Positions 200 to 57,300 of a DNA stretch of 64,000 bases are shown piece by piece. Each line of letters begins with the position of its first letter. The stretch's first letter is position 1. The notes below the pieces were generated by a model that was given only the letters and a program-made list of their open reading frames with translations, was not told the DNA's origin and ran no database searches. Origin of the DNA: Chrysaora quinquecirrha (taxonomy: Eukaryota > Cnidaria > Scyphozoa > Semaeostomeae > Pelagiidae); the NCBI GenBank assembly GCA_014526335.1, contig JACTAT010000026.1, positions 877,565 through 941,564 of the forward strand, written 5' to 3'. The position numbers and the translations under genes were made by a program.

Positions 200-592
200 T
201 ACACGTTTTTTTTATAAGAAACCGGTTGATAAGAAACCTAGAACTAAACACCCAAAAAGTTAAGCAACTTTTAGAACTACGAGGAAGGAGTCAAGAAACT
301 TCAGAAATTTTTGCGTCCGTTTTCCAACATAACTGATTCACATTTGTGGAGGTAGTAATCAGTTCTCAAGCATTTCCATGCGATTTCTCGCACCAGCGTG
401 GCTAATTTCGTGCGATTTCTCGCATCTGTAAGCAATACTGTATCCCACAGAAGGTTTTTTGTTGTTTTTACTGTAATTTATTTCAATTATTTAAGAAACT
501 GTTAAGAAACTTTTAGAACTACAATTGGGCCAAAAAGTAAGAAACTTTTAGAACTAGGCCCCTAGCCAGGTTTCTTATAAAAAAAACGTGTA
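200..592. mobile_element. TACACG-MITE, word AAGAAAC
   Basis: Ends TACACGTTTTTTTTATAAG and CTTATAAAAAAAACGTGTA, with TA at both borders. The word AAGAAAC or its inverse occurs at least seven times inside, often as TTAAGAAACTTTTAGAACTA. Close relatives at 12528-12861 and 40586-40960. Confidence 0.88.
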
Positions 593-1225
593 GGGGTGTG
601 CCGCCCGAGAAACAAAATGGCTACACATATTTATACCAAATTCCTGAAAATTTGTACCAAAAATGACACGAAAATATTAACTCGTACACTACTTTATCCT
701 TTATATGCCTAAATTTACTATAATATGTTAATTCGAATAAAACTTCACCAAGAAAAGTGAAAACAAGCGAAAATAAGACCGTTTTTTTATAAAGTCGATA
801 CCGATTTTCCAGAAATTTACACCCTCATATTTACACCAATTTTCAGAAATGCAATGCCCATGTTTGTACCAAAATCATGAAAAACGATACCCTTTTGTGC
901 AGTCTATATTAAGTACCCCTCCCCCGGGATACCATATCCCTATTACCGTAATGGGGCCTTATGGCCTTACCATAGAAGGGAAATTTTCCCCCTTTTATTA
1001 TTTATGGCCTCACGAAAAGACTTTTCAGACACATTATGTTCTATGGTTCCTAAAAGAATACGTAAGGGGAAATCAGAGGAAGTGGGGAACAAATAATATT
1101 TTAAAAAATTCAAAAAATTCAAATACAATACTTTTTGTAAAAACTAACAGTATCACAGTATACCAGTACTTGGCAGTGACATTGGAGCCTATCCCGCTAT
1201 GAACGTGGGATAAAGAGCAACTGTC
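593..1225. other. Non-genic stretch with a CCCGGG repeat
   Basis: Contains AT-rich sequence and GTACCCCTCCCCCGGGATAC at about 914, of a type repeated at 42880-42900. No exon seen; the open frame at 849-1202 has no recognisable domain. Confidence 0.4.
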
Positions 1226-2660: not shown

Positions 2661-3604
2661 TAAATTAGACCATAAATTTCCCAACGGTATATTTATTGGC
2701 AGCGTGCGATTGTGTCTTATCTCTCAACTTCACGCTCAAATACAATACTACAGTACTGTTGTAAACAAACAAGGCTTTCCGACTCCAGCGATGTAAAAGC
2801 TTTTATGTCAACAAAAGTCCCAAGACGAAAGTAGAATTTTAAGAGTTAAGAATGAAATTTCAAAGAATATGAGAGTTTCTGGTGATTTTTCAAGGATTTT
2901 CTGCCGATTAATAGATGATTCCAGATGAATTGGACATTTCTGGGTGGTTGTGGGTGCTTTTCATCAAGTTTTCAAGGGTCAAAGGACGTCAAAGGACTCT
3001 AGGAGACTGTAGGCCTAATTAATTTTGGAATTTTACTCATATTCTTTCCGTTTTCAAGAAGAGTTCTTGCTTTGATTATTTCCATGAATCGCCAGGCTAA
3101 ACATTGTGTTTACTGTTTCAGTGCATATAAAACACTACTAAGAGGCCAAAAAATTTTCGGGTTTCAAGTTGAATGTTCTTTTGAAAATTCAGAGCACAAA
3201 CACACAAAATGAAAATCGTTCCGATATAATGAGATATTTATTGTTCATGAAGGACATTTAGAATTAAAGTCTGCGATGAGAAAGGGATAGGATTTTCGAA
3301 TTTACGCAGCAGTAATACTACTAATTTTGCGTCTTAAGTTGACACAAAAGCGTTTGGAATATTCTCAGTAGATCTGGAAATTTGGTGGCAAAAATTTCAT
3401 TAAGCATTACCATACCATCGAACTGTTTGACTATTTAGGCTGTTAATAATAGGATTTTCGAGTGCAGACAGGGCATAGAAACTTTGCATTAGAATTCAGG
3501 TGGATGAAACACAGTCAGAGATACCCTTAACCTCCTTCACTGGCTCACTCCCACCCAAAGGTTTTATAAAACTTGGCTTATATTTGACCTTCAGCTTTCA
3601 TATT

Positions 3605-3890
3605 ATAATGATGATGATGATGATGATTTTGATGACATGAAGATAATGATGATTGTGATGATGATGATGATGATTATTATTATTATTATTATGATGAAAT
3701 TGATGATGATGATGATGATGATGATCTGATGATGATGATGATTATGATGATGATGATTATGATGATGGTAATGATGATGATGATGAGGATGATTCTAGTG
3801 GTGATTATAATGTTATAGTTGATGATGGCAATAATGATAATTTTGACGGTGATGATAACTATGATGATGATGATGATGATAATGTTCTTT
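3605..3890 (+). repeat. (GAT)n microsatellite in duplication B1
   Basis: Imperfect GAT/ATG trinucleotide repeat with GATTATTAT interruptions; diverged counterpart at 6084-6367. Confidence 0.95.
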
Positions 3891-3960
3891 TTTGTCCACA
3901 GTTTAATACCCTTTTATCAATTCTCTTATGTGTTTACATTACAAGTAGACTAGCTTTTAA

Positions 3961-4041: not shown

Positions 4042-4056
4042 TATTAGTACCAGTTT

Positions 4057-6534: not shown

Positions 6535-6544
6535 TTAGTACCAT

Positions 6545-8663: not shown

Positions 8664-11600
8664 GTAATTTTGGTTTGTCTGTCTAGAAATTCAAGTCCAT
8701 CGAAAGGAAAATTGAATTGGGGGTGAGGGGCTAAACAATTGGAAAGTATTTGAGTTATTTTCAAAATCATTTGGAGATCTTCACCCCCCCCTGACTTCTA
8801 ACAAGCCTGAACAAACAGTTTTTCTTCTACAGGTTTTTGTTATAAGAAAGTGGTTTATAAGAAAGTAGTGCTCAACATCTTAAAAACTTAAGAAAGTTCG
8901 ATACTGGATTCTTGAAACTTAAGAAAGTTCTGTTCCATACTTTCACTCCTAATGTTCCGTATGTTATTTTTGCTCTTCTGCTCAGTTGCTCATCTTGCTA
9001 TTAAGTATTTGTGCAATGTATACAGTGCCTTAAACTGTGCATTCTTAGAAATACTGTATTCCAAAATTTTTGCTAAGAAAGTCACAAGAAAGTTTTGATA
9101 CTGAAAACATGAAATATCTAAGAAAGTTTCAATACTGGCCTAAAAAAACTTTCTTATAAAAAACGTGTATAGGTGTTTTCCTGTCTTATATTCATTGAGT
9201 GTAAATCCTACTGAAAAGTCAAATTCACTGTTTTGGTTGTGATGCCCAAAACATTCTCAGAAAATTTCCCATTTTTCCTGATTTGCAAAGGTTACTTCTT
9301 TTTCTTTGACTTATTTTTCAGAGAAAAGGACAACCCAGATAACCATTGTATTATTGAGATGTACGAAAATTCCACATGTATTACAGAAAGTAATGGAAGC
9401 TCTCACAATTTCACATTTGATATGTCATATTGGTCATTTGATGTAAAAGACCCTATGTACTGTGATCAAGAAAGTGTTTATGAATCATCTGCACAACCAT
9501 TACTTGATGGAGTTCTACAAGGATACAACACTTGTCTCTTTGCTTATGGCCAGGTAACATCATAACCATTGTCTCTTTGGTAGGCTTGAGAGCTGGCTGA
9601 TTAATCCCTTAGAGCTTGTGGTTGAGGGTGCTGTTTCGTCATCGTGTAATCAAGCTGACTCGTGGTGTCAGGAGCTCAGTGTGGTCAGGGTTCGAGCCCA
9701 GCCATGGTACACGTTTTTTTATAAGAACACTTGGCTTCGATTTCTGCCGGCCTGTTTTTTATTTTTGAAGCGATTTTTCACTAACTTGTCACCCCATACC
9801 CTTCTCGAAGGTGCTGTGGCGTCGTGGTGTAATCCAGCTGACTTGTGATGACAGAAACTCAGTGTGGTTAGGGTTCGAGCCCAGCCACGGTAGCGTCACG
9901 GCCAGGGTTGAGGTCTCGATTAGTTAACCTACTACTGTGATCCTAGCGACTGGCGTTAAAACATCAATTCAACTCCAACTTCACCTTCTCCAAACATGTT
10001 TAACTTGCATTTCCGGGCAAGGGCATTACGCTGGTGAACTTTACTTTTGCGTATCTCAGATAGTTTCGGACATAGCAAAAATTTTCACCCAAATTTCAGC
10101 CTGGTGTTTCCTTTAAAGGTTGTTCTTATAAAAATAATGTGTAGCGTCACAGCAAAGTGTCGAGGTCTCGATTAGTTAACCTACTACTGAGATCCTATCG
10201 AATGCCGCTAAAAAACCATTTCACCTTCACCTTCCTTCGTTCGTGTTTTATGATGCTTTTTTGTTGTTGTTGCATGATGCCTAAAACTAGGCTTGTTTCG
10301 GAATTGGACAAAATACAGTCGAGTCTAATTGAAAACGGCAGGCGACGTTATGAGGACATTATTTCGGATCTTTTTCGCAAGAAGACCACAAGTTTTTCGG
10401 CTGATGAAAAGTACAGTCCGCAAAAGTGCACTGCTTACCTAAAAATGCCGTGGCTTGTCATTGTTTCCTTGCGATTCGAAGATCAAATTAAAAATACCAT
10501 TACTAAGTGTTTCGATTCTGCAAACGCTCGGTTAGTTTTAGCACTCGGAAAGTTCTGCTATCTATTCAAAAGGATTGCGTGCCTACCACAGAAAAAAGTT
10601 TGATTATTTTTGAAATAATGCGCCCTTGTGATATGTAGCTAGGTTGCACTTCCAGAGATTAGGAGATAAAATCAACAGCATGTTCAAACTAATATTCGTC
10701 AGTGCAATTTTCGACAAAGAGATCAGCCACCCCTCAACTCTAGGCAACAACCCACCCTTAAGCATGATTCTGTCATAGGACAACTTTTGCTGGATCACCC
10801 AGAGTGTACAGAAAATTACAGCAAGGACTATTTTCGTATAATTGGCAAAGCTAGATCAATGTTTTATTTAAGTGATTTGGAATCTGTCCTTATGGAAACA
10901 CAAAGGCCGATTCTGTGTAGACAGAAAGAATTCGTTTTCCCACTCTTAGACCTGTTTCATACGTCGTGCGCGCCATACCGAGTAAATTTTGACTGATTTC
11001 AGGTGGTTCGGCGCTGCGCGACTCATACGAAACCAATTTCACACTCTGTTCGACTGGTCGTATAGTACGGCGAAGGCCTCTTGTCCAGGTCGACCTAGAG
11101 CGACGTATGAAACTAAAACAGTCGCGCCGCGCCGTACCTTTCTTCCAAATGTGCACAGAATTATGAACTTCAGCGGTTTTTTCTTTCAAAATATAGTCCC
11201 AGGAGAAGTCCTTGTCGGGTGAAAATGTCTTTGTTGAAAATATTCACAATGTTTTGTGCGGTACGGCGCCACTAGAAAAATGCCTTATGAAGCAGAGGCG
11301 TACCCAGTCGAACCATAGTCGAACTTTATTTCTGTTAGTTCGGCACGGCACGGCTCGACGCATGAAACGTCGCCTTAAAAAGATTTTGTTTGTCTTTCCG
11401 CTGTATTCTGCAACCTTGCTAGTGTTCAAACCACAATACCAATACAGCCCAACTTTTCTGATTGGTGATTTTCGATCGGCATGTTAGTTTATATTCTGCT
11501 TTTGTCAATTACTTAGGTCCGCTACTGATGTATCACTCTGAAGAGTGTCAGACGAAAAAAGTGCTTTGATGTTTCGTTTGGTGATCATCGCAATTTTAAA

Positions 11601-14600
11601 ACTCTGTACATCTCAAAAATTACATACAGTTTGGGTTGCATGTCTCTAACCAAAATCCGTTCATCCCTCCCATTTATATAGTGGGCGCGTTCTTTTGAAG
11701 CGAATCAGAGATTTGCTTAGCTTTTTTGATTCTACAAAATATTGGAACCGAAGCAAAAGGAAAAGAACTCACTGATTCGGTCTTTCAAGTAAATTTCAAG
11801 TTTCCAAGAAATATCTAGCATCTTTCTAGTAGCTGTCGCAACAAACTCTGAAAATCAACGCAATAAATCAAAATTTTAATCCAACAGCTGCCAAATCTTG
11901 ACAAAAATCTTTAAAAGTTGGCTTCCCCTCCTTTCCATATGGCGCGAAAATCAGACTCGACCCAGTCCTAAATTATCACGTAAGCAAAAGACGTACCAAG
12001 AAACAGCAACGAAAACCGAATCTGGTTCAAAAGAACAAAAAAATCTTCGTTGCTTCGCTAAGCAATAAAAACGAATTGCTACGAAAGCGATTCGCTTGAT
12101 TCGCTTGAGAAAAGCGAAGGTGAAGGTGAAATGAAGGTGAAATGGTGTTTTAGCGCCAGTTGCTAGGATCTCAGTAGTAGGTTAACTAATCGAGACCTTA
12201 ACCCTGGCTGTGACGCTACCGTGGCTGGGCTCGAACCCTGACCACCGTGGCTGGGCTCGAACCCTGACCACACTGAGCTTCTGACACCACGAGTCAGCTG
12301 GATTACACCACGACGCTACAGCACCTTCACCAGCTTCGCTACTTCGCTACTACACTGAAAAGAACGATAAAATTTTGAATCAAACTTTTGCTTCGCTCCA
12401 AAAGAACGCACCCAGTCTATGCTATAAGCAGCAGCATATACCTATAATCATTTCTATTTTTTTCAGACTGGCTCCGGCAAATCCTACAGGTAAAATAAAG
12501 AGATTGCATAAGTATAATGTTTTTGAATACACGTTTTTTTTATAAGAAACCTAGAACTAGACACCCCAAAAGTTAAGAAACTCTTAGAACTAGGAGGAAG
12601 GAGTTAAGAAATTTAAGAAATTTTTGTGTCAGTTTTCCAACATACTGATTTCACATTTGTGGACGTAGTAATCAATTCCGTGCGATTTCTAATTTTAATA
12701 ATTTGCTTGCTATATTCACTTTTTTTATCGTTTCTACTACAATTTATTTCCATTAAATCAAGAAACTGCTAAGAAACTTTTAGAACTAAAATTGGGCCAA
12801 AAATTAAGAAACTTTTAGAACTAGGCCCCGAGCCAGGTTTCTTATAAAAAAAAGACGTGTAGTGTATTTTTTGCGAGCAAGGGCTTCTAACTTATTTGTT
12901 TAATTTTGGAGTTCTGCAAACTACAGTACGCTAGATCTTTCCAGGCTAAATGACATCTTTGTGGAATGCCTTGTTTCAAACAAATGCTGAGCTCAAAGGT
13001 TCATTTTTTACTCCGCCAATCAACTTCTTGGGTAGATAATTGTAACGAATGGTGAACACTAGGATAGATTTTCCGATAAGTGGCATACCACAATAGATGG
13101 GATTCGATTTTGGACTCTATAACCAGAGAGCCAGCCCAAGGCTCTCTCTCCTCCCTTTTGACTTCTTTTTTCCACATGTGACGCAACACATTAGATGGGG
13201 TGCGAGTCTGGACTGCATGACTAGAGAGCCAACGACAAAAGATGAACACAAGGATAGATTTTTCCATAAGTGACACAACACAACCGATGGGATTCGAACT
13301 TGGACTAGAGAGCCAACGCTGTTCCACTGAGCTTTAGAGCTTGGATTAAATCACTGAGTAACTTTCAAAGTCATACAGCCCAAGGCTGTCCTCCCATTTT
13401 GACTTTTTCGCTATGTTGAGCCTTCAAAAATGTTACGCGGCAGAACAGCCTTGGGCCGTATGGTTGGGAGAGTTATTCGGTGATTCCATTGAGCTCTTTT
13501 GCTCCGTGGAAACGTCGCTGGCCTTCTGATCATGCAGTTCAGGTAATCCCATCTGCACTTTTTTTTAATAAGCAACTGGTCAATAAGCAACTAAGGGCTG
13601 AGATTTTTTTCAAATTTTTCGTTGAGATAGCTTTCTTTATACAATACATATTTGCAAGCTTGCCAATCACATTGAAAAGCAAGAAAAGAGAAAAAAGGAA
13701 TTTTCAAGGGGTACCAGTCATTCTGTGAGGGCTGAAAGACCAGATACGTTAAGCAACTTTGATGGCTGGACCAAAAGTCCAGTTGCTTATTAAAAAGGGT
13801 ATTGTGGATAATCTATGAAAATTATTTCGTGACAGTATGATGGGATATCAAGATACTGATGCTGGCATCATACCTCGATTTTGTGAAGAGTTATTTCAGA
13901 GAGTCGAGGAAAAATCAAATGTAAGTAATTTATGTGTACGTATTGTTACGCTTTTGGTCGAGAATTATCCACACATTTATCTACCCAGCACTTTGAAATT
14001 GTGTGACCCCCGGATTTTTATGCTATCTAAAGCCATAATTACACTAACATCCGTCAGACTTGAGCCCTGGCTAAACTAAGAGACATATCGCACGCGACAT
14101 TGTATTCGGCGTGTCTACCAGGGTGGCTAAACATGCGAGTGACAAGCGAGCAACATGTCCATCGAGTTGCGGAGACTAAAATGTGTCTGTTGTCTCCCAG
14201 AAACATTGTGTATCTCTTGCTACAAATTTTCCGTTGCGGCTAAACCTGGGAGACGTCGAGGGGACATGTCACGCGCGACAATGTCTCCCGAAACATGTCT
14301 CCAATTTTAGCCAGGCCTAGTTCCGTGAGAATGAGTTGTATTGGGTGTAAGTATATTCGAACTTATTAAGGCGTTGACACTATTTTTATAAGAATACTAT
14401 AAATTTTGTCCAGCCTCAATATTCTTAAGAAATGTTCGCTTTGAGCCTGAATATATTCTTAAAGTATTCTTATTTTTTCAAATCTGATATGGTTTCAGAG
14501 GAACATAGTTAAAAGAAATTTCATGACGAAGAAATGGCCAAACGAATGAAAAAATTAAGCTATTATAACAATAAGAATGTTGTTCAAAATGATGAAATTT

Positions 14601-15361
14601 TGTTTTAACATTGCAAAACAGGCAACTGCTGAAAAATGAGACACAAATAATGCGAGCTGAGGCTGAGCAATATTCTTACAATATTCTTAAAAATAAGATG
14701 ATTCTAAGCCTGCATATTCTTATAAGCAATATTCTTATAAAAAAGAGTGTAATGACAGACTTGATAGTATTTATCACGGGAACGTTTTGGAAAAGCTCCG
14801 TCACCCAACATTGTCCCATGATTGAAGTTGGATCTCTCCTGAAACGTAACCCTGAAGAATATTAAAGTCTATTGACGATATGATGATTAGCATGTGAAAC
14901 TTTCGTTGCCCCTGTGTTGTTCAACGATGTCTTACTTCTTATTTTTCTAGGTAAATTTTGCTGTGGAGATTAGCTTTTTTGAGATTTACAATGAAAAGAT
15001 TCGTGATCTATTAACCTACGCACAAGAAAATAAAAAACAGGTAGAAATTATCGTTATAAAATAATTTTGTTCTCCTACTTCATCATCATAATGGATCACT
15101 ATCATCATCACCATCATCATCACTATCACCAATCATTGTCTTCAACATGATCAACATTGTTGAAGAAGATGATGATCATGTTGAAGATGATGATGACCAT
15201 GTTGAAGACGGTGATCATCATTTTCGTCTTCAACGTGATCATCATCATCATTGTAGTCATATTCGAGCATCATAATCATCATCATGATCGTCTTTAGCAT
15301 GATCATTATGGTCATTATCATCCTATTCAAAGTCATCATCATCTTGAAAATCATCATCATT

Positions 15362-24300: not shown

Positions 24301-27300
24301 CTTGACCTTTTGAAGTTAGCTTATTAGAAAGAGAGCTGAATCGGTGCAGATGTTTCTGATAAAGCTGCTCTAGCATTCATTCGGAAGTTATGTGACTTAA
24401 CTCCATATCTCTCAGTTACACAGGGAAACTTTGACCTATCTTATCCACATACATTTTATAACATCACAAACATCGCTAAAAACAACGCTTAGTGTTCGGT
24501 GTTCCCTTGAACTCAGTCATGCAGATTTTTAACAGCGAAAAGTCTGCAAACTCTTGCTACACTCTCACGCTGGATGTTTGTTTCAGCCGGCCATTAGTCG
24601 ATAGTCGGACTACTTATCCCACACAAGCAGCTGCTATAGCCACTTTTTGTATGTTTTGCTCTGTTTTTTCCCTGAGTAGACTTGGTTGTAATCGATGATA
24701 TGTAAATCTGCACTAATTGGTTCTAACAGCCAAAGTGCTTGCAGAAACACAAAAAATTAACTCTTTACATTGGGGCATACTACACCTATTTTAATGAGGA
24801 ACTTTCTTCTCGGCCAGCTTAAAAGTTTCTTGAATACAGAATTATCCATCCAACAAGAAATTGACTTATAAGAACCTTCAGCCTGTCAGATAGCATAATA
24901 CATGTCCTTTTGATATATATTTATAAAAGCAAAATAGGAGGAGGGCTTTGGGCTGTATGACTTGGAGAGTTAATGGCAATTTCATTGAGCTCTGTAGCTC
25001 AGTGGAAACGTCGTTGGCTCTCTGATCATGCAGTCTTGGGTTCAAATCCTATCAATTGTGATATGCCACTTGTGGAAAAATGATTATTCTTGTGTTCGCG
25101 ATTCATGACAACTTGATATATATATTTATATATATTTATAAGAAACCAAGCAGCATGGTTTTACAGTAATGAATTTCTCAGTGGCGGGGTAATACTTTAT
25201 ATAAGATTTCAGTCTGAAAGCCAAGCTTATGTGGACCTCTGATACGATAGAACTAACACAAACTAATTGTCACTGCTAACATATTTTGACATGTCAACAC
25301 CTAGGAAGAAGTTATAGCCTACAGCTGATTCGTGGTCGCAAGAGCGCTCAGGTCGCAAGAGCGCTAACATGAATCAGTTGTCAACCAATCGGAAATGTAG
25401 AACAGGCCTAGCTCTACAAGCGGGTATCCAATTAAGTTATTAATTTTTTCACTGATTATTCTCTCACCAGGTACGCAAGCCAAGCGCGGAATATCGTCAA
25501 CCAAGTGAGAGTGAATGAAGACTCAAATTCGAAACTGATACGAGGTAGCTTTCTGTTCCATATTCTTGTCTTGATTTTCCAAGCTCAGCGTCTCCCCTCT
25601 CTCTCTCCTTTACGCTGATTCGTCAGTTCCTAACATACACGCTTTTTTTTATAAAGAACCTAGCTCAAGGCCTAGTTCTTAAAGTTCCTTATTTTTGGAC
25701 TTCTTTTGTGACGATTGTAGTTCCAAAAGTTCCTTAATAGTTCCTTAATTTTAACTGCATGTTCAGTTTCATGACTACTATACAGAGACGGTTAGGTGTG
25801 ACTAAGCTCGAGACTACTCACGGAAAGTATAAGCTCTTTAAATTTTCGGGCCTTCTACATGTAGGTTCCTTATAAAGTGGTTCCTTATAAGAAAAAGCGT
25901 GTAGCGATCTTGATGATGCCGCACCTACCCTGGGTGCCAGACTCTCGAAATTAAAAAACGAGAGTCTGGTTCAGTGCGCCCTGACCTCGTTCCTTTGCAG
26001 ACCGCCTGAACTCATTTGAAAGTTCTTCTTGCCAATTCCACTGACTGGACTACGACTGTACAAGGAGGAGTTCGTCTGAAACATATGCTGGAGTTTGAGA
26101 GAGTTTTGTTTAAGATATTACATATACCATTGTCAAAGAATCATAATTACGGCACAAACAGATGGATCGACACGCTGGGTGATGGATCGATGATTTAGAG
26201 CAGCGATGTGGCCAGACAGACGTTTCAACTGCATCCTTTTCCATCCAGCGTCTTTTCATGGCCTAAGAGGGAGTATTCTGATCTTTGATGCAAAGAAAAA
26301 TTTCAAAACTTTTCAAGACCGAAATTGAACTTAAGGAAATTACGCAACAGCATCATGATGTGAAATATATGAAAGCTGCACGTAGCAGATGAAATTTTAA
26401 ATCACACACAGACATGCTAATTGGTTGATTAGATAATATCAAACTATTGTTGTAAACACAGTGCTTGGTGTCAGCACTGCACCACCAAAAGTTGCCGAGT
26501 TGTTTCATTGAAGACGCTCAAATATTTTACACAAACTTGGATTAAACTCAAGATACTATGAAAAAGCACTTGTTGGCAATTAGGGCATCCTTTGTAATAC
26601 ATTGTTTTCAAATAAAATAAGATGAAGGCAAAATTGAAAACATACATAGGTACTGTCTGTCAGGCTTAAAACAATGCACAATGCAATAATTAAGTTATAG
26701 TAAATGTTTTCAACGATAGTTCTTAATTATTCTTATTAAACAAAATGTTTTATAATTTTGCAGCAATTTCAATTTTGTAGCAGTTTTTTCTGACAGGGAT
26801 TGCATGGTTCAGATAATGTTGTTTTACATGCATTGACTTTTTTCAGCATTGACCATCTGTCATTGCACCTAACTTCTCAAATTGGGACATGATCATTGAC
26901 TTGGTGCAATGTTAAAATTTTATCTAACTTGGTACTATTCTTTCTTTAATTTGAGCAATATGCCACTCCAAAGATTTTTGTGGCTTGTGTGTAAAAGAGA
27001 ATTGTCTCTTGAGGGAAAATTTTGTGCAAACTAACAGATAATAAGTTAAAGTTATTTCAGAGAAATCAATTGAAATCTTTTTTATTTTCCACAAAGGTCT
27101 CTTTTGAAAATGTGACATGCAGCAACTTGTGATAAATCTTTGCACCAGAAATGTATTCACTAAGATACCAGGGCACAGACATCAACATTTTGAGAAATTC
27201 GACAGAAATCTGCTCTCCAAACTTGAAGTTTGATCACTTAACAGATGGTAAAGATCATATGAGAAAACTAAAGGATGATTTGTAGTGCTTGACTAATAAG

Positions 27301-30300: not shown

Positions 30301-33300
30301 ATCTCAACCTCGTCCCCAGGGTGAATAGGCCTCTACGTGAAACTCCGCTGTCCATATTTGACCCTGGTATCGGCCTTGTCTATTCGCAATTTGATTGGCT
30401 GTTCAAACAATAGAAATTTTAAGTGACGTCACAGTTTCTTAACAATTTCACACCAAAATAGGCCGACAACTATGTAAAAAACACCCATAAAAACAAAGAA
30501 TTAGCCACATGAGATATTGTATCTTGCCTTACAGTTATCAATGAAATTCTTTGCATTTCCCTTCTAAGAACATCTGCTTTCGGAATCTACATCTTGTTTA
30601 ATGCCTAGGCCAAAATTGCCAGTGTTTTGGCAGATTTTTGTGGCCGGTACCAGGGCCAAAATCGATTTGACTGTTGAGATTCGTGGAAATTCTATTTGGG
30701 GCCTGGGGACGAGGTTGGCAATATCTATCTCACTTGGGCGTTCCAGTACATTCTCAACCTGGGAGGGCAAATTATGCTCACCCATATTTATCTCAGCTAT
30801 TGTATCACTTGGGAAAAAACAACTAATATCCCTGCCCCAACAGCAGCCACAATGCAAAGAGAAGTTGGCCGAAATGTAAGGGTGTACCGGATATCCGGTA
30901 GGCGGGATAATCCGGTGCCGGAACGCCGATTTGTCAAAAATCTGGTTCTGGCCGGATATGTTTTCAAAATCCGGCCAGCCACCGGATTTTCAAGAATTGT
31001 ATTTAGAACTGAAACAATATGCTCAGAATGGCAAAAACCATTATCAAAGTGGTGAAAATGTAGCTACAATCCTTCACAAAATATGTTTGGACTAGTAACG
31101 AAATCGAAATACATTCACTGCCATCAGTCAAAATTTTTGTATTTCACCCCCCCCGCAAACAATGTTGTGGGCGGGGAGCGCGGAAAGGGGAGGGCTGACG
31201 TTTTCTGGCGGTTTTAAAAAGTGACTATGCGACTTTTACTCAAAACTATGAAGATGTTAGCTAATCATTTCGATACATTCTCTTGACTTTGTCTTTCAAT
31301 TGTCCGTCAGTAATACGTTCGGATTATTAAGGAGCGAGAAGAGCAAGCAGTCTCACAATTTTTGTGGACGATTGTAGCTAGAAGAATTTAACAGTTATCA
31401 AAACAGTAGAACAGAGCATTAAACGCAATTTAATATCCAGAACGGAAGTCCTGCTTCATTAAAAACAAATAATGATGTGATTTTAAAGTTAAAACCACCC
31501 AAAGTTATGATGCAAGAAATGCAACTTCTCGTCTTTCCTTGGAAGTCATGAAGACGTTTCCAGTCTCTGAAAATAATTTCCTTTTGTTCTTAAAGGCTTC
31601 TCTGGTAAATCTTGAAAATTCTTATTACAGCAAAATCCGGTACTAGCCGGATTATCTGGTAAAATCCGGCAGGATTATCCGGCCAGATTCTACCGAAAAT
31701 CCAGATTCTGACAGTCCTGATCCGGTACACCCCTACCGAAATGTTGATTGGGTATAATGTAAGCAATGCTTGTCCAAGTCGTTTAATACATATCAACTTA
31801 AGCCGCGGGCACACTTGCGATTTTGCCTGTTCTGGCGACACGACACACCTGAAAATGTCCTGTTTTGAGAAATCCTGAGGTGGCTACGCGCTGCGACAAA
31901 TGGCTACACGCTGCGACAAAATGCTGCGACAGAAACTCTGCGACAATCAGCTTGCGAGATAAGAAGAATTGGTCCTAGAACCTTTCCTGGAAAACGCGTG
32001 ACAACAATACAAGGTGTTGCGTCGCTAGTGAAAAAGAACCGGCTACCCACTTCGACATTATTGGCTACAAGGAAAGCAATGTATTGAAGAGTTCAGCCAA
32101 ATCAATGTTCTTGGGCAGTGTTTCCTCAGGTGGTAGAACATTTTGTTTGAAAATCTATCCCTGGTTACACCTTTGACTTTTAGTTTTGGGGTCGTGTCGA
32201 CAATTTTATCATGTCTTGTTGCCATTTCAAGGAAAAAGTCGCACGTTTAAGGCCCATTTCCACTTCGTTCGCATTCGCTGTTCGCTGTACGCTAGCCATC
32301 AATAAAAGGCGAGCGCGAAGCGATTTTGATTTCCGCTGCAAGTTAAGCTCAAGCTTTCGAAAAAGTTTTACTTTGTTTTTTGCCTAAAATTGATCACGAA
32401 GGCTGTATTCTGTTCGCAAGCGAGCGGCGAACTTCAAATTCGCTAGCGAACAGAGAATGCGGACGAAGTTGAAATGGGTCTTTAGTCGTGGCATCACCTG
32501 TATAATTACTTAATCAATTACAAGCCAACGTACTTGTGTATTGATGTTCCTATTCAGAGTATTGGAAGCAAAACATAAACAGTCCGAAGACAAACAGCAA
32601 AAGGAGGCAGAAAGGCTAAGGGTAAGTTTACGCTTTCAAAAGCAAAATACATTAGAAAACATCACATAAAAAATCATTGCAAAATCCCTAAACTTGCAGC
32701 ATTTTTTCTAGTAATTACAGAAGCAGAGAAACAGTTTTTAGTCTTATTTGGTGAAAGAGACTTTCAGGTGACTCGCGGGATGATGAAAAGGCGGAAAAGG
32801 GAATCTCTATCAAATGAATTTTAACTTACTCAGTTACAAACTAACTAACTTACTTCATGACTTACTTGTAACTTACTCAGTTACAAACTAACTAACTTAC
32901 TTCATGACTTACTTGTAACGTACTCAGTTACAAACTATCCAACTTACTTCATGACTTACTTGTAACGTACTCAGTTACAAACTAACTTACTTCATGACTT
33001 ACTTGTAACTTACTCATTTACAAACTATTTAACTTACTTCATGACTTACTTGTAACGTACTCAGTTACAAACTAACTAATTTACTTCATGACTTACTTGT
33101 AACTTACTCAGTTACAAACTAACTAACTTACTTCATGACTTACTTGTAACTTACTCAGTTAAAAACTAACTAACTTACTTCATGACTTACTTGTAACTAA
33201 CTCAGTTACAAACTATCCAACTTACTTCATGACTTACTTGTAACGTACTCAGTTACAAACTAACTAACTTACTTCATGACTTACTTGTAACGTACTCAGT

Positions 33301-36300
33301 TACAAACTAACTAATTTATTTCATGACTTACTTGTAACTTCCTCAGTTACAAACTATTTAACTTACTTCATGACTTACTTGTAACTTACTCAGTTACAAA
33401 CTAACTAACTTACTTCATGACTTCCTTGTAACGTACTCAGTTACAAACTATTTAACTTACTTCATGACTTACTTGTAACGTACTCAGTTACAAACTAACT
33501 AATTTACTTCATGACTTACTTGTAACTTACTCAGTTACAAACTAACTAACTTACTTCATGACTTACTTGTAACTTACTCAGTTAAAAACTAACTAACTTA
33601 CTTCATGACTTACTTGTAACTAACTCAGTTAAAAACTAACTAACTTACTTCATGACTTACTTGTAACGTACTCAGTTACAAACTAACTAACTTACTTCAT
33701 GACTTACTTGTAACGTACTCAGTTACAAACTAACTAATTTACTTCATGACTTACTTGTAACTTCCTCAGTTACAAACTATTTAACTTACTTCATGACTTA
33801 CTTGTAACTTACTCAGTTACAAACTAACTAACTTACTTCATGACTTACTTGAAACGTACTCAGTTACAAACTAACTAACTTACTTCATGACTTACTTGTA
33901 ACTTACTCATTTACAAACTATTTAACTTACTTCATGACTTACTTGTAACTTACTCAGTTACAAACTAACTAACTTACTTCATGACTTACTTGTAACGTAC
34001 TCAGTTACAAACTAACTAACTTACTTCATGACTTACTTGTAACTTACTCATTTACAAACTATTTAACTTACTTCATGACTTACTTGTAACTTACTCAGTT
34101 ACAAACTATCCAACTTACTTCATGACTTACTTGTAACTAACTCAGTTACAAACTATTTAACTTACTTCATGACTTACTTGTAACTTACTCAGTTACAAAC
34201 TAACTAACTTACTTCATGACTTACTTGTAACTAACTCAGTTACAAACTATTTAACTTACTTCATGACTTACTTGTAACGTACTCAGTTACAAACTAACTA
34301 ATTTACTTCATGACTTACTTGTAACTTACTCAGTTACAAACTAACTAACTTACTCCATGACTTACTTGTAACTAACTCAGTTACAAACTATTTAACTTAC
34401 TTCATCACTTACTTGTAACTTACTCAGTTACAAACTAACTAACTTACTTCATGACTTACTTGTAACGTACTCAGTTACAAACTAACTAATTTACTTCATG
34501 ACTTACTTGTAACTTACTCAGTTACAAACTAACTAACTTACTCCATGACTTACTTGTAACTAACTCAGTTACAAACTATTTAACTTACTTCATCAATTAC
34601 TTTTAACTTACTCAGTTACAAACTAACTAACTTACTTCATGACTTAATTGTAACTTACTCAGTTACAAACTAACTAACTTACTTCATGACTTACTTGCAA
34701 CGTACTCAGTTACAAACTATTTAACTTACTTCATGACTTAATTGTAACTTACTCAGTTACAAACTAACTAACTTACTTTATGACTTACTTGTAACTTACT
34801 CAGTTACAAACTATTTAACTTACTTCATGACTTAATTGTAACTTACTCAGTTACAAACTAACTAACTTACTTCATGACTTACTTGTAACGTACTCAGTTA
34901 CAAACTAACTAATTTACTTCATGACTTACTTGTAACTTACTCAGTTACAAACTAACTAACTTACTCCATGACTTACTTGTAACTAACTCAGTTACAAACT
35001 AACTAATTTACTCCATGACTTACTTGTAACTAACTCAGTTACAAACTATTTAACTTACTTCATCAATTACTTTTAACTTACTCAGTTACAAACTAACTAA
35101 CTTACTTCATGACTTAATTGTAACTTACTCAGTTACAAACTAACGAACTTACTTCATGACTTACTTGCAACGTACTCAGTTACAAACTATTTAACTTACT
35201 TCATGACTTAATTGTAACTTACTCAGTTACAAACTATTTAACTTACTTCATGACTTAATTGTAACTTACTCAGTTACAAACTATTTAACTTACTTCATCA
35301 CTTACTTGTAACTTACTCAGTTACAAACTAACTAACTTACTCCATGACTTACTTGTAACTAACTCAGTTACATACTATTTAACTTACTTCATGACTTAAT
35401 TGTAACTTACTCAGTTACAAACTAACTAACTTACTTCATGACTTACTTGCAACGTACTCAGTTACAAACTAACTAATTTACTTCATGACAAACTTACTCA
35501 GTTCAAACTAACTTGACTTATACTTTTAATTTACTCACTTACAAGCTAACTTACTTCATGACTTACTTGTAACTCACTCAGTTACAAACTAACTTACTTC
35601 ATGACTTACTTGTAACTTACTCAGTTACAAACTAACGAACTTACTTCATGACTTACTTGCAACGTACTCAGTTACAAACTATTTAACTTACTTCATGACT
35701 TAATTGTAACTTACTCAGTTACAAACTATTTAACTTACTTCATGACTTAATTGTAACTTACTCAGTTACAAACTATTTAACTTACTTCATCACTTACTTG
35801 TAACTTACTCAGTTACAAACTAACTAACTTACTCCATGACTTACTTGTAACTAACTCAGTTACATACTATTTAACTTACTTCATGACTTAATTGTAACTT
35901 ACTCAGTTACAAACTAACTAACTTACTTCATGACTTACTTGCAACGTACTCAGTTACAAACTAACTAATTTACTTCATGACAAACTTACTCAGTTCAAAC
36001 TAACTTGACTTATACTTTTAATTTACTCACTTACAAGCTAACTTACTTCATGACTTACTTGTAACTCACTCAGTTACAAACTAACTTACTTCATCACTTA
36101 CTTGTAACTTACTCAGTTACAAACTAACTAACTTACTTCATGACTTACTTGTAACGTACTCAGTTACCAACTAACTAATTTACTTCATGACAAACTTACT
36201 CAGTTCAAACTAACTTGACTTATACTTTTAATTTACTCACTTACAAACTAACTTACTTCATGACTTACTTGTAACTTACTCAGTTACAAACTAACTTACT

Positions 36301-39300
36301 TCATGACTTACTTGTAACTAACTCAGTTACAAACTAACTAACTTACTTCATGACTTACTTGTAACTTACTCAGTTACAAACTAACTAACTTACTTCATGA
36401 CTTACTTGCAACGTACTCAGTTACAAACTATTTAACTTACTTCATGACTTACTTGTAACTAACTCAGTTACAAACTAACTAACTTACTTCATGACTTACT
36501 TGTAACTTACTCAGTTACAAACTAACTAACTTACTTCATGACTTACTTGCAACGTACTCAGTTACAAACTATTTAACTTACTTCATGACTTAATTGTAAC
36601 TTACTCAGTTACAAACTAACTAACTTACTTTATGACTTACTTGTAACTTACTCAGTTGCAAACTATTTAACTTACTTCATGACTTACTTGCAACGTACTC
36701 AGTTACAAACTAACTAATTTACTTCATGACAAACTTACTCAGTTCAAACTAACTTGACTTATACTTTTAATTTACTCACTTACAAGCTAACTTACTTCAT
36801 GACTTACTTGTAACTCACTCAGTTACAAACTAACTTAGTTCATGGCTTACTTTTAACTCTACAGAAAGGCAATTTCTGGAGGGAGGGGGTTGAAAAACTC
36901 TCCCCCCCGGCCACGTAAGATCAAAACAAGCCCGATAGAGTTACGGTTAAATTTTGGAGAACAAACGCGAAACGCATTTACGCAACGCTTTTTTCAAAAT
37001 CTAGAATGGCGACGAACCGGGCCGATCATGGTGTCTCGTGCGAAGGGTGATCATCTTCAATTGTGAGAACGAACAGAAGAGAAACAGCAAACTACAAATG
37101 TTCAACTTTCATGTTAAATCACATCATTCGAGTAAGATAGAAAGTTCGATGATATCGCGCTTTGCGAAAAACGCTCCGGCTCTCTTTTCAGTTTACCATC
37201 GTCTTCGTCGTCCACTTACCACATGTCTCCAACTGATGTATGGATCTGTTGGAAAGAATTCATGTTCTTAATATTCATATTTTCCTTTTTTGTATACCTT
37301 ATCGCCTCTAAAGCACTCCGAAACATTTGTTAAATTTTGGAGATGTACACCTTTTCAACTAAGGGCCTCGTTTTCAAAAGAATTGAAAATTGTGTCGCAG
37401 AAACATTTTGACGTCAGATTCGAATTCAGCACCTTCGTTTTAGTGTTCGGAAAAACTTTTAGGCTTCTAGTCCTTGAGATGTTGCTTTTATAGGGATAAA
37501 AGTTTGTAAAGTTGTTAGTGGTTTAATGATGAAAATCAATGAGGGTTTCTTAAAGCCCTTACAGATTTGCGAAGTTTTCGTCGTTATAAAATCAACATCG
37601 TAAGGACTAGAAGCGTATATAAATTAGCCTCAGCACTAAAAAGAAGGTGCCCAATCTGAATCTGGGGTCACCATTTTTGTACGAAAAAGATTTTCGTAAA
37701 ATTTTCAAAAAAAGGCTCTAAGTTGAAAAGGTGTATTTGATGTGGCGTTTATCAGAGGGAGGAGTTAATATAGGATCACTACACCAGTTTCTACTTTTCG
37801 CTTCCCTACTCTTGATCTGTCGCTCCAACCCACTCAAACAAAGAGCGAGTATAGAATGGAAAAAGGTTGAGGTTTATTAGGAGTCGTTTTGTTCAGAGCT
37901 GTAGACGTACAATAGAGGGAATAAGTTACTATTAAAGATTACGCAAGGTTACTAAGACCTGCCAGCTGCTGATCTTAGACTCCATTCACACTACACGGTT
38001 TTTTTTATAAGAACACTGAAATTGAAGAAAGCCATGCAGTGTTCTTAGTTTTCCCGATTTGAAGACTCAAAATGTTCTTAACATGTTCTTAATTTTCTTG
38101 CTTTTTAAAAAGCTGTTGTTCTTCAAATTAGGTGACAATTGCTACGAAAAGGGACGCACATGTAAAAATGTCACATAGCCACAATTATTGATAGTTTGCC
38201 TGTTTTCTAGAAAGGAGAACAGGACAGCGCCAATAAAATTCTAATTTGTCTAGCTTCACAAAGCCTTGTTATGTTCTTAGCATGTTCTTAACTTTTCAGC
38301 CTCTGAAGCCTTATGTTCTTATATACTTTATTTATAAAAAAACGTGTATACTGGATAGCTATCGGAGCGCTGTGCCTTGCATTGACCCATGCTGAATAGG
38401 GCAAGTGTTTACATTATACTGGATAGCTATCCTGCTTCATGATTTTCATATCGGATGGACCCGTTTACACTATACCTGATATGGTAGAAACAAAAAAATT
38501 CAATAGTTGTAGCTTCGGCTAATGCGCATCAATCCATGTAGGCGATGCATCCACGCGCACAAAAAACATACTCAAGCTCTACTCTTCGTTTCCGAAGACA
38601 GGAGAAAATAAATATGATGATAAACAAAATGTTGAAAATTGATGCTACGAAAACTGCCATGACCACTGTTTTTCACTCCCAACATTCCATTTTCATTTCA
38701 CAAAGCACATGATTGTCCGTATCATTGTCCAAAGAAGAGGTCTTTTAAAAGGGGGCAGCAAATCACTTTACAGTTGGTAAATATATGGTGGTGCCTACCA
38801 TAGTGTCTGTGTGTTAGGAGAGAAAATACCTTGCTACGGAAAGTAAGTGTACGCAAGTCATGCAAAACAAAACAAAAATCAAACCATTTCGTCCAGTTTT
38901 GACTTCATCATCGACCTCATCTGCTTCCTCAGGGCCAAACATGTCTATCACATCATTATCATCAAGATCTTCCTCGTAAGCATCTAAATTGAAGTTTTGA
39001 CATCAGTTGCATGCAATTACTACTGAGGAAATTGTGCAACGAAATGGTTTCGACATTTCTTAACAACAACAAATATAACTATGTGTGGTGCTGAACTGAG
39101 TCCCAACACAGCCGAAACGCAAAAGTCAGATGGGAGGAGGGCCTATGGCTGTATGATCGGGAGAATTGCTTGATGATTTCATTCAGCCCTATAGCTCAGT
39201 GGAAACGTCCTTGGCTCTCTGGTCATGCATTCTTGGTTAGAATTTCACCTATTGTGGTATGCCACTTGTTGAAAAATCTATCCTAATGTTCGCCATTCAT

Positions 39301-42300
39301 GACAAATATATACAAAATATGTATGGTGCTGAAGAAGGCTCAACAAAGCACCATCTATTGTTGTGTTCTACTTGTTGAAAATTTATTGTAGTGTTCGCCA
39401 TTCATGACAAATATAAAGATATATGTATGGTGCTGAAGAAGGCTCAACATAGCCGAAACACAAAAGTGAAACGGGAGGTAGCCTGAGCGCAGACTTTTGT
39501 TACTGGGGAGGAGAGGAAGGAAAGGAACTACAGTAGTAGTAGGAACTTTTTAGTTACTTCCATTCCTCTCCTCCCCAGTAACCAAAGCCTGCACACAGGC
39601 TAAACGGGAGGAGAGTATTGGGCTGTATGACTTATAACAGCTACTCGACGATTTCACATTGAGCTCTTAGCGCAGTGGAAACGTCTTTAACAATGATGGA
39701 ACGAACGCTAAACTTACTGCAAACTGAAAATGCAAGTCCAAGAACAAGAAGCAAAAGGAAAACGGTCTTCATTTTCAGGCTGTCTTTTTGTCAATCCTGC
39801 AATGGAAGTCACTGTGAAATAACTGTGCTCATTTTCGCAAGGATGATAAAAGAATTATTTACATGAATTTAATAAAAGTTTCAAAAACAAAATCTTTCTG
39901 CTGGTCGTGATCGTGCCTAGGGGCAAATCACTGATTAAAATCACATATATTTTCAAGATTAATCACAAAAAATCAAATTAATCACAATTAATAAAAAATA
40001 ATCATATTAATCACAAAATAATCAAATTAATCACAACTTAATCAAATTAATCACAAAATAATCAAATTAATCACAAAAGAATCAAATCAAAATCACGCAC
40101 ACTTTCCAGGTTAATCACAAAAGAATCAAATTAATCACAATTAATAAAAAATAATCATATTAATCACAAAATAATCAAATTAATCACAACTTAATCAAAT
40201 TAATCACAAAATAATCAAATCAAAATCACGCACACTTTCCAGGATAATTACAAAAAAATCAAATTAATCACAAATGATCAAATCAAAACCAACGCACACT
40301 TTCCAGGATAATCACAAAAAAATCAAATTAATCACAAATAATCCAATTCATCATAAAACAATCACATTATTCACAAAATAATCAAATTAATCACAAATAA
40401 TCAAATTAATCACAAAAAATTAAATTAATCACAAATAATCAAAATAATCACAAATTAATCAAATAATCATAAAGTAACTAAATAAATCATAAAATAATCA
40501 AATAAAAGCACATACACTTTCAAGATTAATCATAAAAAAGTCATATTAATCACAAAACATCACATTAATCATAAATTAATCACATTACACGTTTTTTCTA
40601 TAAGAAACCGGTTTATAAGAAACCTAGAACTAGACACCCAAAAATTTAAGAAACTTTTAGAGCTACGAGGAAGGAGTTAAGAAACTTTAGAAATTTTTGT
40701 GTCAGTTTTCCAACATACTGATTTCACTTTGTGGAGGTAGTAATTAGTTCTCAGCATTCCCAGTGTGGCTAATTCAGTGCAATTTCTCGCACCTGTCTGC
40801 AATACTGTATCCCACAGGGTTTTTTGTCGTTTTTACTGCAATTTATTTCCATTTAATTAAGAAACTGTTAAGAAACTTTTAGAACTAAAATTGGGCCAAA
40901 AATTAAGAAACTTTTAGAACTAGGCTCCGAGCCAGGTTTCTTATTAACAAAAAACGTGTAATCACACAAGATTAACCCCTGATCAATAAACACGTACGCT
41001 TATTGAGGGAGTGATTTGCCTCTGGGATCGTGCTTCGGGAAGGGGTTTTGCAGAAATTTCGCCATAATTCTTTAAATAAAATGTAGATACAAGTTACTAC
41101 ATACAAGCATCTTTGATCTGTAATGTAAGTGAGAATAGTAAAGCGACAAACCTTTTTTGGTTCAAGAACACCTCAGACAGTCAGATGATAACTTGAAACA
41201 CCAACTGAACTCTTTCAGAGCAATCAGCCCTTTGTAACCCTTTTATACCCCTCTACAATACTTCCACCCATTCAAATTGAGTTTTTGTACCAGAGGAAGA
41301 ATAATTGTTTTCACCAAAGGATTCTTCCGCCCTTACAAAAGTAGTCTTTTCTTGCAGCGAAAAATTATCTGTTTGGCACGGAAGAGAGTTCGGCTGTCTG
41401 TTATACCCGGAATGACGGAATACCGGAATGCGGGAATCTGTAAAAGCCGGAATCTCTATACGTAGTTTTATTTTAAAAGGAACACTATACTGTATCAAAA
41501 CTTTGTTGATACGCTCTTTTTAAAATAAGAATACATTGATCTTTGCTGAGTCTCGATTATTCTTAAAATTTTTAGATTTCCAGTCAAATCATTTTTTATC
41601 GACAATACAATGTACACATTTTATGGTTTTATTTAACAAGCAACTTGACTTTTGTCCAGCCCTCAAAGTTGCTTAAAATTTTAGACATTTCAGCCCTCAA
41701 AGTTGCTTAAAAGTTGCTTAACCTTTTTTACCTAACAACCACCCCTGACTTTTCGGGTCAAAATCATCAACTGTTAGGCCTACAACACAACTTTTGGGAG
41801 ACAGCAAGTGGAAAAACGTTAGCTAACGAACTTTAACAAACAAAACCTAAGAACGAACAATTTCTTAAAAACAAGAAAGAGAATAAGCTTGATTGTTTGA
41901 CTTCTTAGTTGCTTACAGTAATTCAATTGAGCCCTCAAGTATCTTAATGTTAAGCTCAGTTCAGCCCTAGTTGCTTATTGAGCGGTTGCTTATTAAAAAA
42001 GTTTATTCAAAATTGATCTTCTTAGCAAAAATGATACCCCAAGTTTGTAATTTTAGCAAATATGATACCCCAAAATTTATTTTCCACCCCTAAAAAGGTA
42101 CCTCAAAAAATGGCACATCCCGTACCCATACATATGGGAGTTACCCCCAGGATGCCTGACCATGTTTCCGCTGTTTATCGCAATTTTGAACTTTATACTA
42201 CTAAACGTTACGTACAGTTATCTTCTATCTACTAGGTACAACAACATTTGGGAATTCACAATCGCAGCAAGAGAACATTGATATAAAATTAGACGGACCA

Positions 42301-54300: not shown

Positions 54301-57300
54301 TCACAGACAGGGTGAACGCCCCGTTAGTTCATCTACTTCTGAGATCAAAGCGACTGGCGCTAGCTATTATTAGAAGTGCTGTGACGTCGCGGTCTTAACC
54401 AGCTAGCTCATGGTGTCAATAGCTTAGGGAGGTCGGGGCTCGAGTCCCAGCCAATGTAGCGTCACAGACAGGGTGAACGCCCCGTTAGTTCATCTACTTC
54501 TGAGATCAAAGCGACTGGCTCTAACTATTGAAAGCGCTGTGACGTCGCGGTCTTAACCAGCTAGCTCATGGTGTCAATAGCTTAGGGAGGTCGGGGCTCG
54601 AGTCCCAGCCAATGTAGCGTCACAGACAGGGTGAACGCCCCGTTAGTTCATCTACTTCTGAGATCAAAGCGACTGGCTCTAACTATTATGAGAAGTGCTG
54701 TGACGTCGCGGTCTTAACCAGCTAGCTCATGGTGTCAATAGCTTAGGGAGGTCGGGGCTCGAGTCCCAGCCAATGTAGCGTCACAGACAGGGTGAACGCC
54801 CCGTTAGTTCATCTACTTCTGAGATCAAAGCGACTGGCGCTAGCTATTATTAGAAGTGCTGTGACGTCGCGGTCTTAACCAGCTAGCTCATGGTGTCAAT
54901 AGCTTAGGGAGGTCGGTGTTCGAGCCCCAGCCACGCTAGCATGCTTGTACCATGCTGATACCACGCTGGGTGCATCAATTCATCGCACCTTCACATCATT
55001 TTACCTTCCACCTTCCATCATGAAACGCGAGTATTTCTTCCATCTAGGCCCTTGAAGAAACAAAAGCAAATCAGATGGAAGTTATCACAGAACTTGAAAT
55101 CGAAAAAAGGAGAATCGAAGATGATGTACGAAGACTTAAATCTAAAAAGGTATTTTTTCTCAAAACAATTCGATTTTGTATCTGACGTTGCTTTTACAAG
55201 AATACACTCTTTTAATAAGCAACTGGACTTTTGTCCAGCCTTCAATGTTGCCATAAAGTTTTGACATCTCAGCCCTCAGAGTTGCTTAATGGTTGCTAAA
55301 GATTTATCGTACCTAATAGCCCCCATGGCTTCGTGGGTCAAATCATCAACTGTTAAGCTATGGCTATTACCTAAGACTTACAGTTGACATCCGCTATCTC
55401 GACTGCCCGCTATCTCGAACATTCGCTATCTCGAACGACTTTCCATTTCCTCTCGTTTTGGCATAAGGGTTTGTATAGAAAAATCATCCGCTATCTCGAA
55501 CCCCGTTATCTCGAACATTCGCTATCTCGAACCAATTTCCATTTCCCATGGAGGAAAACCTGCTTTTTTTCTCGAACTTTGTCAAATTTTCTGCTGAACT
55601 GGATAAATATGTATAAGTTCGCCTAGCGGAGCGGGAATGGCAGCAGCTAAGTGATATGCTGCCCATGTATACAATAGATGAAGCTGTTCTCTTTCGAGAT
55701 GTGCTGCATCGCCATGAGAGCAGATGAGTTTTGACTCCTATGTAAAAAATACCAGACTTGTTTGATGAAATTTGGGATCAGTAACGCTGCATGTTAATAG
55801 GGGTTCCTTTTCTGACTTAAAAACTATAATTTTTTATATCTATATGGGGCATCCGTTATCTCGAACATTCGCTATCTCGAACCAATTCCAGTTTACCTTG
55901 AGAGTTCGAGATAGCGGATGTCAACTGTATATCTTTTCACATCAATATTTTGACATGAATTCTGCAGTTGGTTGTTTGACTTCTTAAGGCCTGGCTAAAC
56001 TAGAAGACATATCGCAAGGGACATTGTCGCGCGTGACATGTCCCCTCGATATCTCCCAGTTTAGCCACCTCGGAAACTTTGCAGCGCGCGACAAAATTTG
56101 TAGCAAGAGACACGCAAATGTTTCTAGGAGACAACAGAAACATTTCTTCTCTCAGCGATTCGGGGGACATTCTGCTCGCTTGTCACTCGCATGTTTAGCC
56201 ACCCTGAAAGACATGCCGAATGAAATGTCGCGTGCGACACGTCTCCTAGTTTAGCCACAGCTTTAGTTGCTTGCAGTAATTTAATTGCGCCCTCGAGTTG
56301 CCTAATATTCAGGTCAGTTCAGCCCTAACTGCTTATTGAGCAGTTGCTTATTAAGGAAGTGTACAGTCTCTTTTTACACAACTGATACAATAAAAACACG
56401 AAAGATGATGTGATATAATAAAATATGTTTTTCTGCGTTATGTTAACGTTTTTTTTTTGTAAATTTTCCACCAACAGGCACAACGAGAAGTAGTCAGAAA
56501 TGAAATCCGATCAGCATTATCCTCTGTTAACGATAAAGGTATACAAATGTCTCTCAAGGGTCACTTTTCACTTCCTTTTAACAACGTATAGAACGAACCT
56601 TTGTATAACAGAAGCCTCTCTAGAACAGACAACAACATTGGAGATTTCAGAAAAATCCATACAGAATCCATAACAGAAAAAAACCGAACAGATGTCCAGT
56701 GGAAACTCCATAAACGGACACATGTGGGATTAAAGTTATTGTCCGTTATAGAGCTTTTACAAAAATTGACCTTTTGGGCAAAAGTTTTTGTCCCTTCTTC
56801 GTTCGTCAAAGGTGTCCGCTAATCGCCAGTTGCAGTATTGATCTCTGTAGAGGTGGGACCTAAGTTAACGTACACTAGGTGTCCGATACATGAATAACAT
56901 GTTTCTGTTATTGAAGGCCCAGGGCCCTTCTTGAATTATTAAGGAATTTGTGGCGTTTATGAGAGGGAGATGTTGATTAGGGGGGGGTCATTTATTACAA
57001 AATGGAAACGATTCTATACGTAGTTATCAAAGAAAAACCACAAGATCTCTTGCTTTCTTCCACTGTTGTCATTAAATAGGGTGGGGAGGGGTAACTAATC
57101 AAGTCAGTACATCGTCTTCTTTGCACTTTCTGTTATTTAATGGAATGCCACATTTAACATGTACGTCGTTTATTGGATAAAGGCTTTTATTAAAGGGGGA
57201 GTGTTCGTTGTCATTTTTGTGCTGAAAGGGTTGACGCTAGAATAATGAGGCCTTCATTTGAGGGTTTTAGGCCATGAATTGTTAGAAGAGAAACGGTGGC

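Follow-up and report, generated by a model that had tools for sequence, protein, structure and literature searches.

The window analysed here, a 64-kb stretch of the genome of the scyphozoan Chrysaora quinquecirrha (contig JACTAT010000026.1, positions 877,565 to 941,564), harbours eleven miniature inverted-repeat transposable elements (MITEs) with a short word repeated inside them. A preliminary description made from the letters alone had proposed such a family; all eleven elements were located where it had placed them, and the pattern proved stronger than described. Throughout the text, "word" denotes the four letters following TAAG, and the two ends of an element are called A and B; tails are motifs lying beyond many of the words. 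Labels beginning with L stand for fetched genome stretches and those beginning with C for contigs, while P0005 and P0006 are homologous proteins. The elements are as follows.

200..592, plus strand: MITE, word AAAC, tail type I (AGAACTAGG), A end on the left; seven AAGAAAC, one AAGCAAC
8828..9169, plus strand: MITE with eight AAGAAAG sites (word AAAG) and a variant of tail type I (ATACTGG); its A end scores best against L031/L032
9708..10143, minus strand: MITE of a mixed-word family, AACA at both ends, with a nested short interspersed element (SINE) within and itself inserted into a SINE copy
12528..12861, plus strand: MITE, word AAAC, tail type I; six AAGAAAC
13554..13801, plus strand: MITE, word CAAC, tail type II (GGGCTGAA), left TA altered; four AAGCAAC, one AAGAAAG
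14376..14751, minus strand: MITE, word AATA, tail type II, left TA altered; eight AAGAATA; nearest to the autonomous-type element L029:595-3266 (B-end score 99)
25636..25903, minus strand: MITE, word GAAC, tail type I; five AAGGAAC
37992..38348, minus strand: MITE, word AACA, tail type II; eight AAGAACA, one AAGAAAG
40586..40960, plus strand: MITE, word AAAC, tail type I, an eight-site copy; eight AAGAAAC
41613..42005, minus strand: MITE, word CAAC, tail type II; seven AAGCAAC, one AAGAAAG
55203..56363, minus strand: MITE, word CAAC, tail type II, unrelated interior; four AAGCAAC, one AAGGAAC, some decayed sites

The interior of the last of these contains CGCTATCTCGAAC repeats together with other inserted DNA, apparently another mobile element.

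Ends and target site

With at most one mismatch, the terminal sequence TACACGTTTTTTTATAAG occurs at 1831 places in the 328-Mb genome (909 forward and 922 reverse), compared with no forward and two reverse places for its reversed control. Outer ends mostly read CACG or CACT, followed by a run of T. All copies had been credited with shared ends and a TA target duplication. TA indeed flanks both outer ends in nine of the eleven window elements, the left side having become TG in 13554 and GA in 14376. The duplication itself was demonstrated for one element, 9708-10143, which interrupts a SINE copy; the SINE nested within this element is itself uninterrupted and has a single TA at the corresponding point, against two around 9708-10143.

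An asymmetric array of exchangeable words

The exchanged part is shorter than the 7-bp word originally proposed, namely the four letters that follow a constant (A/T)TAAG. Six word classes (AAAC, AAAG, CAAC, GAAC, AACA and AATA) are built on one asymmetric array plan, which we derived from the TAAG sites listed in 32 elements, with slots fitted in 14 of them. At the A end the slots lie about 15, 30 and 61 bp from the end, followed by one at 72 and/or 92 bp; at the B end they lie about 99, 88, 54 and 15 bp from it. Some sites are absent from single copies. Words had been reported in both orientations, which holds for the inverted outermost B site, an arrangement found at one end only, while the inner sites all point the same way relative to the element. 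Pairs of equal words are spaced 15 bp apart in 28 cases and 11 bp apart in 13, with at most five pairs at any other spacing between 9 and 21 bp.

Beyond many words, at a distance of about 10 bp or roughly one helical turn, lies a tail motif of type I (AGAACTAGG/AGTACTGG) or type II (GGGCTGAA/CAGCCT). Words and tails combine: CAAC and GAAC were seen with both tails, and type I bears AAAC, AAAG, CAAC and GAAC.

A third AAAC family was also noted, with ends like TACACTCATTTTTT (L018:9540-9861, L020:678, L043:1-120 and L035). In L018, L020 and L043 its first two sites are 14 bp apart instead of 15.

Uniformity of words within elements

Uniformity was assessed in 32 elements, that is, the eleven of the window and 21 hand-picked from 36 outside end pairs after removal of overlapping or spurious pairs; among the latter, L022 is a merger of two listed pairs and the right end taken for L018 is spurious. 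In 30 of the 32, a single word is present four to eight times and none of the other five more than twice. The two exceptions, 9708-10143 and L019:4319-4563, belong to one family. This family is truly mixed, with AACA at the ends and AAAC at the adjacent sites in the better copy, L019.

Words are clearly more uniform within than between copies. In ten family representatives, with the count restricted to six-word sites, 171 of the 193 pairs within elements are identical, while shuffles averaged 33, peaked at 58 and never reached the observed value (0/20000). When all TAAG sites of the same representatives are admitted, 171/432 pairs are identical within elements and 198/3939 between them (shuffle mean 36, maximum 66). 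Strict uniformity is nevertheless too strong a claim in view of two mixed families, the one above and another described below.

A word-blind scan of 264 kb for clustered sites yielded 73 clusters, 30 of them within a satellite of the window (32.8-36.8 kb). Outside this satellite 39 of 43 clusters carry one of the six words, and the rest have CATA, AAGA, CCCC and TCTA, once each. As a rough control, eleven other anchor tetramers returned between 8 and 94 clusters, the satellite share included.

Words are exchanged slot by slot

The flanks of the sites were compared in ten elements from nine families. Between different slots of one element, 1141 of 3904 flanking letters agree (0.29), whereas the same slot across word classes gives 1970 of 4160 (0.47); different slots across word classes give 9114 of 31040. 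In neither framework did any of 2000 shuffles of the slot labels reach the same-slot value (0.536 against a maximum of 0.439, and 0.450 against a maximum of 0.411). The word letters themselves agree in 951/976 comparisons within elements and 570/1040 between classes, figures inflated by the choice of sites (only those at most one mismatch from the class site were used), so that the flanks are the actual test. Words have been exchanged site by site on inherited frameworks, every site retaining its surroundings, and the earlier suggestion that a word can be swapped while the framework stays the same is borne out.

Pogo-type transposases within the same ends

The preliminary description had proposed a search for autonomous partners with the same ends, and such elements exist. 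A coding remnant adjoins the AATA-class B end in L016; it resembles a Tudor domain weakly (PF21743), with 24.1 bits against a cut-off of 27.2, and used as a query it led to P0005 and P0006, both bearing DDE_1. Scores for this domain (PF03184, cut-off 22) are 37.5 bits in L029:6120-7634, 39.1 in L039, 38.8 in P0005 and 41.1 in P0006. The 665-residue P0006 further matches CENP-B_N (22.8 bits, cut-off 21.2), HTH_Tnp_Tc5 at 15.5 bits, under the cut-off of 22.2, and very weakly a Tudor-like domain, and it shows a weak alignment to the DNA-binding structure of CENP-B (1hlv, E 0.05). BrkDBD matches of the transposases are under cut-off, and weak C2H2-like matches lie at the N-terminus. The last two Asp residues are spaced by 35 residues in L029 and P0006 and by 36 in L039. 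A 56-residue piece of the L016 remnant was found at 21 genome places, and the L029 transposase has 88 matches among the candidates scored.

Two elements lie side by side in L029, each with both ends present and with its own transposase, broken into frames; both are within the size range stated for pogo elements.

L029:595-3266: AATA element of 2672 bp, eight sites
L029:5204-8046: AAAC element of 2843 bp, seven sites

The transposase body was fetched for 16 copies (in L016, twice in L029, and in L030-L042), and 14 of them could be assigned a word.

AATA: L016 (B end), L029
AAAC: L029, L030, L035 (B end)
AAAG: L031, L032, L038 (A ends)
CAAC: L033 (B end)
AACA: L036, L037, L042
Mixed AACC/AAAC: L039, L041

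For MITE ends of the AAAC, AAAG, tail-I CAAC and AATA classes, the autonomous ends of the same word class score best, in a comparison that left the words unmasked and had one end only for some classes.

As a separate observation, a weak Tudor-like match (PF21743, under cut-off) closes the transposases L029:6120-7634 and L016:6359-6652.

Recognition helices by word class

The first helix-turn-helix was read in 13 word-assigned copies, and its recognition helix differs by word class.

AAAC: DKSMVTKW (L029), HKSLVSKW (L035, frame with a stop)
CAAC: CKSLVTRW (L033)
AAAG: DESLVSKW (L031), NESLLSKW (L032)
AATA: NQSLISKL (L029)
AACA: DRSLVVKW (L037), NRSLVVK followed by a stop (L042), DRLLVVKW (L036, shifted frame)
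AACC/AAAC: SKSQVVKW (L039, L041, L052), SKFQVVKW (L051)

Positions 1, 2 and 6 are the usual specificity positions in such helices. Position 2 is Lys in the four lineages with a C-ending word; the remaining three have Glu, Gln or Arg there. Helices were also read from N-terminal stretches of the copies at C467:5896762, C319:339114 and C320:416816 (L044, L048 and L050), with Arg, Glu and Arg, respectively, at position 2; these stretches do not reach the ends and stand outside the helix-word comparison. The frames read for L045, L046, L047, L049 and L053 contain no such helix.

A deeper branch with other ends

L036, L037 and L042 have other outer ends (TACAGTAAAAACCCGCATAAAAG) and the same kind of array, with the word AACA. 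A free-word pattern search with TACAGTAAAAACCCGCATAAAAG ends found 126 places, about 100 of them listed, against 16 for the reversed control. The AACA family of this branch carries AACA at both ends, with C387 one letter off at one end. Among the matches listed is a sister family whose A end carries AAAC in C102, C179, C193 and C523 and AATC in C146, and whose B end carries AACC in C146, C179 and C193, which makes it the second mixed family. L037 and L039 agree at 132 of 202 positions (65%) in their DDE pieces. Together, AAAC, AAAG, CAAC, GAAC, AACA, AATA and AACC form a network joined by single-letter steps.

A further family, with ends AAAAACCCGCATATAAG, was seen for example at C162:597179 and C290:7150510; its word varies by listed copy (AACC, AAAC, AATC, AGCC).

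Discussion

We conclude, with a probability of about 0.8, that the window elements are MITEs of the pogo superfamily and that their words are binding sites which have co-evolved with the transposase. The elements would belong to the IS630-Tc1-mariner group, in keeping with the TA target, perhaps near the Passer family. Drosophila pogo carries repeated binding motifs. Most likely, the partner transposase binds the ordered array of words through its N-terminal helix-turn-helix and in this way builds a paired-end complex. Its recognition helix would set the word of the lineage; when the helix changes, selection would shift the sites of the mobilised elements to the new word, slots and flanks being inherited, and the mixed-word families may be intermediates of such a shift. 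The co-evolution with transposase DNA-binding domains proposed at the outset is supported by the pogo-type transposases within the ends and by a class-wise difference of helices, and the whole has the appearance of a natural record in which a protein and its DNA address have changed in step.

Several results weigh against this reading. Two families have mixed words, AACA/AAAC and AACC/AAAC. Partners for GAAC, tail-II CAAC and tail-II AACA were not found among the loci fetched, which are a subset of the matches, and L034 has no assignable word. Class assignment used the A end alone for L031, L032 and L038 and the B end alone for L033, L035 and L016, and that of L041 is one pattern match. The comparison of DNA-binding domains by word class did reveal differing helices, and position 2 is the sole column of 38 that separates C-ending words in the seven hand-aligned lineages; five of the 35 possible four-of-seven groupings, the real one included, have one perfect column, and the lineages are mutually related in a tree of the C-terminal block. 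The association of Lys at position 2 with a final C is thus suggestive only. A forecast made before the end was read, that the word of L040 (helix SESMISRW, with Glu) would end in G, failed. The B end of L040 has GTAT, GTAT and GAAT at three sites, the outermost site being without a clear word. Moreover, about 1.7 kb upstream of the helix of L040 there is an A end with AAAC words (L043), which, if part of the same element, would break the Lys-C rule too; it resembles MITE copies in L018 and L020.

The finer code in which Glu specifies a final G was dropped after this failure. The L040 B end (L040:2426-2521) can be aligned at 69% with the L035 B end (AAAC class) along 96 bases, and it may represent another word exchange on the L035 framework, possibly an eighth word class.

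Three other explanations deserve attention. The preliminary description had named concerted conversion, by which sites of one copy are homogenised by recombination, as in tandem repeats, and no binder drives the process. The near-identical words within an element are what it would produce, and tandem-repeat formation is the proposed route for VANDAL motifs (PMC5735166). Here the sites lie 11 to 40 bp apart and are not tandem units, and already a few bases away from the word the flanks are at background between slots (0.29) and shared at the same slot across classes (0.47). Long-tract conversion is disfavoured for this reason, because tracts of ordinary length would have brought the surroundings along; conversion with tracts hardly longer than the word falls under the same explanation and is unaffected by the flank test. 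Taken as a whole, we consider conversion very improbable. We judge just as improbable that a host protein, for example a pipsqueak or CENP-B-like factor, binds the words and that the elements diverged to escape or recruit such factors. Domesticated host genes with such domains exist (PMC7386202), and the common spacing requires merely some common binder, but each partnered word class has a transposase of its own, with a distinct helix, inside the element, and the outermost sites lie about 15 bp from the ends.

Least probable of all appears plain divergence of families, in which the words are simply lineage-specific sequence of old, internally repetitive families and no matching selection operates. 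Word classes are indeed families with their own frameworks, whose copies are alike by descent, and the helix-word link is not significant on its own. Uniformity nevertheless persists with one representative per family, at scattered slots with unlike flanks, an outcome that descent would hardly produce unless each site were under selection.

Among known systems, the pogo superfamily is closest at hand. Its elements measure 1.2-5.2 kb and encode transposases of 300-977 residues, and its Passer family combines DD35D with BrkDBD/HTH_Tnp_Tc5 (PMC7386202). Our elements share with it DDE_1, a CENP-B_N-type domain (P0006), the TA duplication, a DD35D reading in L029 and P0006 and sizes within these ranges, and differ in their roughly eight exchangeable subterminal sites, the weak C2H2-like matches at the N-terminus and the weak Tudor-like match at the C-terminus. 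The word "subterminal" does not occur in the main text of that account. Among titles and opening lines of abstracts in the open-licence literature, we found none that describes a slot-wise exchange of words for pogo elements.

Turnover of motifs together with their binder is already known or proposed in plants. In the VANDAL/VANC system of Arabidopsis (PMC5735166), as here, a motif is repeated in each element, relatives differ by a few letters, and protein and motif change together; it differs in its plant host, its superfamily, its tandem-repeat motifs and its role in anti-silencing, as against single fixed slots that most likely serve transposition. Identity with VANDAL was rejected, the partner having DDE_1 and not a Mutator-type transposase; VANC was not searched for. 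CACTA elements (En/Spm, Tam1, Tgm) likewise have many asymmetric subterminal motifs that are bound by TNPA-like proteins and diverge by family, and co-evolution of motif and binder has been raised for them, but they belong to another superfamily with a 3-bp duplication and CACTA ends, and the motifs compared share little (PMC2613891). They too were set aside, given the TA duplication and the CACG or CACT ends with their T-run.

Galileo resembles our elements in having several sites for the transposase DNA-binding domain in one end, within long inverted repeats, but is a member of the P superfamily with a THAP domain and another architecture (PMC3688188). CMITE of Acropora is a coral MITE group with an unusual conserved interior, which its authors link to piggyBac-like transposons (PMC2872659).

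A bolder extension, which we regard as doubtful, is that a readable code is caught evolving: the seven-word network with mixed families on or near its edges as living intermediates, the start of the helix setting the word and Lys2 reading the final C. Our confidence in it was lowered because the L040 forecast failed. If it were true, a small number of helix changes would give rise to a new word class, MITE sites would then be captured one slot at a time, and each transposase would become isolated with its own MITEs. How the specificity of a DNA-binding protein can shift when eight sites have to shift with it has long been asked. With related transposases, words, MITEs, mixed families and about 1800 end matches in one genome, the coupling of helix and word can be tested directly, as can the way in which new transposon lineages gain independence from old ones.

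An ISL2EU partner had been suspected from genes in L022, where an ISL2EU-like gene pair (L022:20-2355) encodes THAP/HTH_Tnp_4 (just under cut-off)/DDE_Tnp_4 and YqaJ proteins. The candidate was rejected. ISL2EU elements have an AT duplication, ends usually starting with GG, and THAP and YqaJ proteins (PMC4482050), and these AT/GG hallmarks are unlike the TA and CAC ends seen here. The L022 genes lie in a 4-kb stretch that lacks TAAG followed by any of the six words, and the element may extend past the fetched stretch. HTH_Tnp_4 occurs at at least 150 genome places. Other candidate partners considered were CMC-Mirage, CACTA and Tc1-type elements.

The satellite of the window is a repeat array at 32800-36810 with a strong GC skew, amounting to -0.385 across 32-36 kb.

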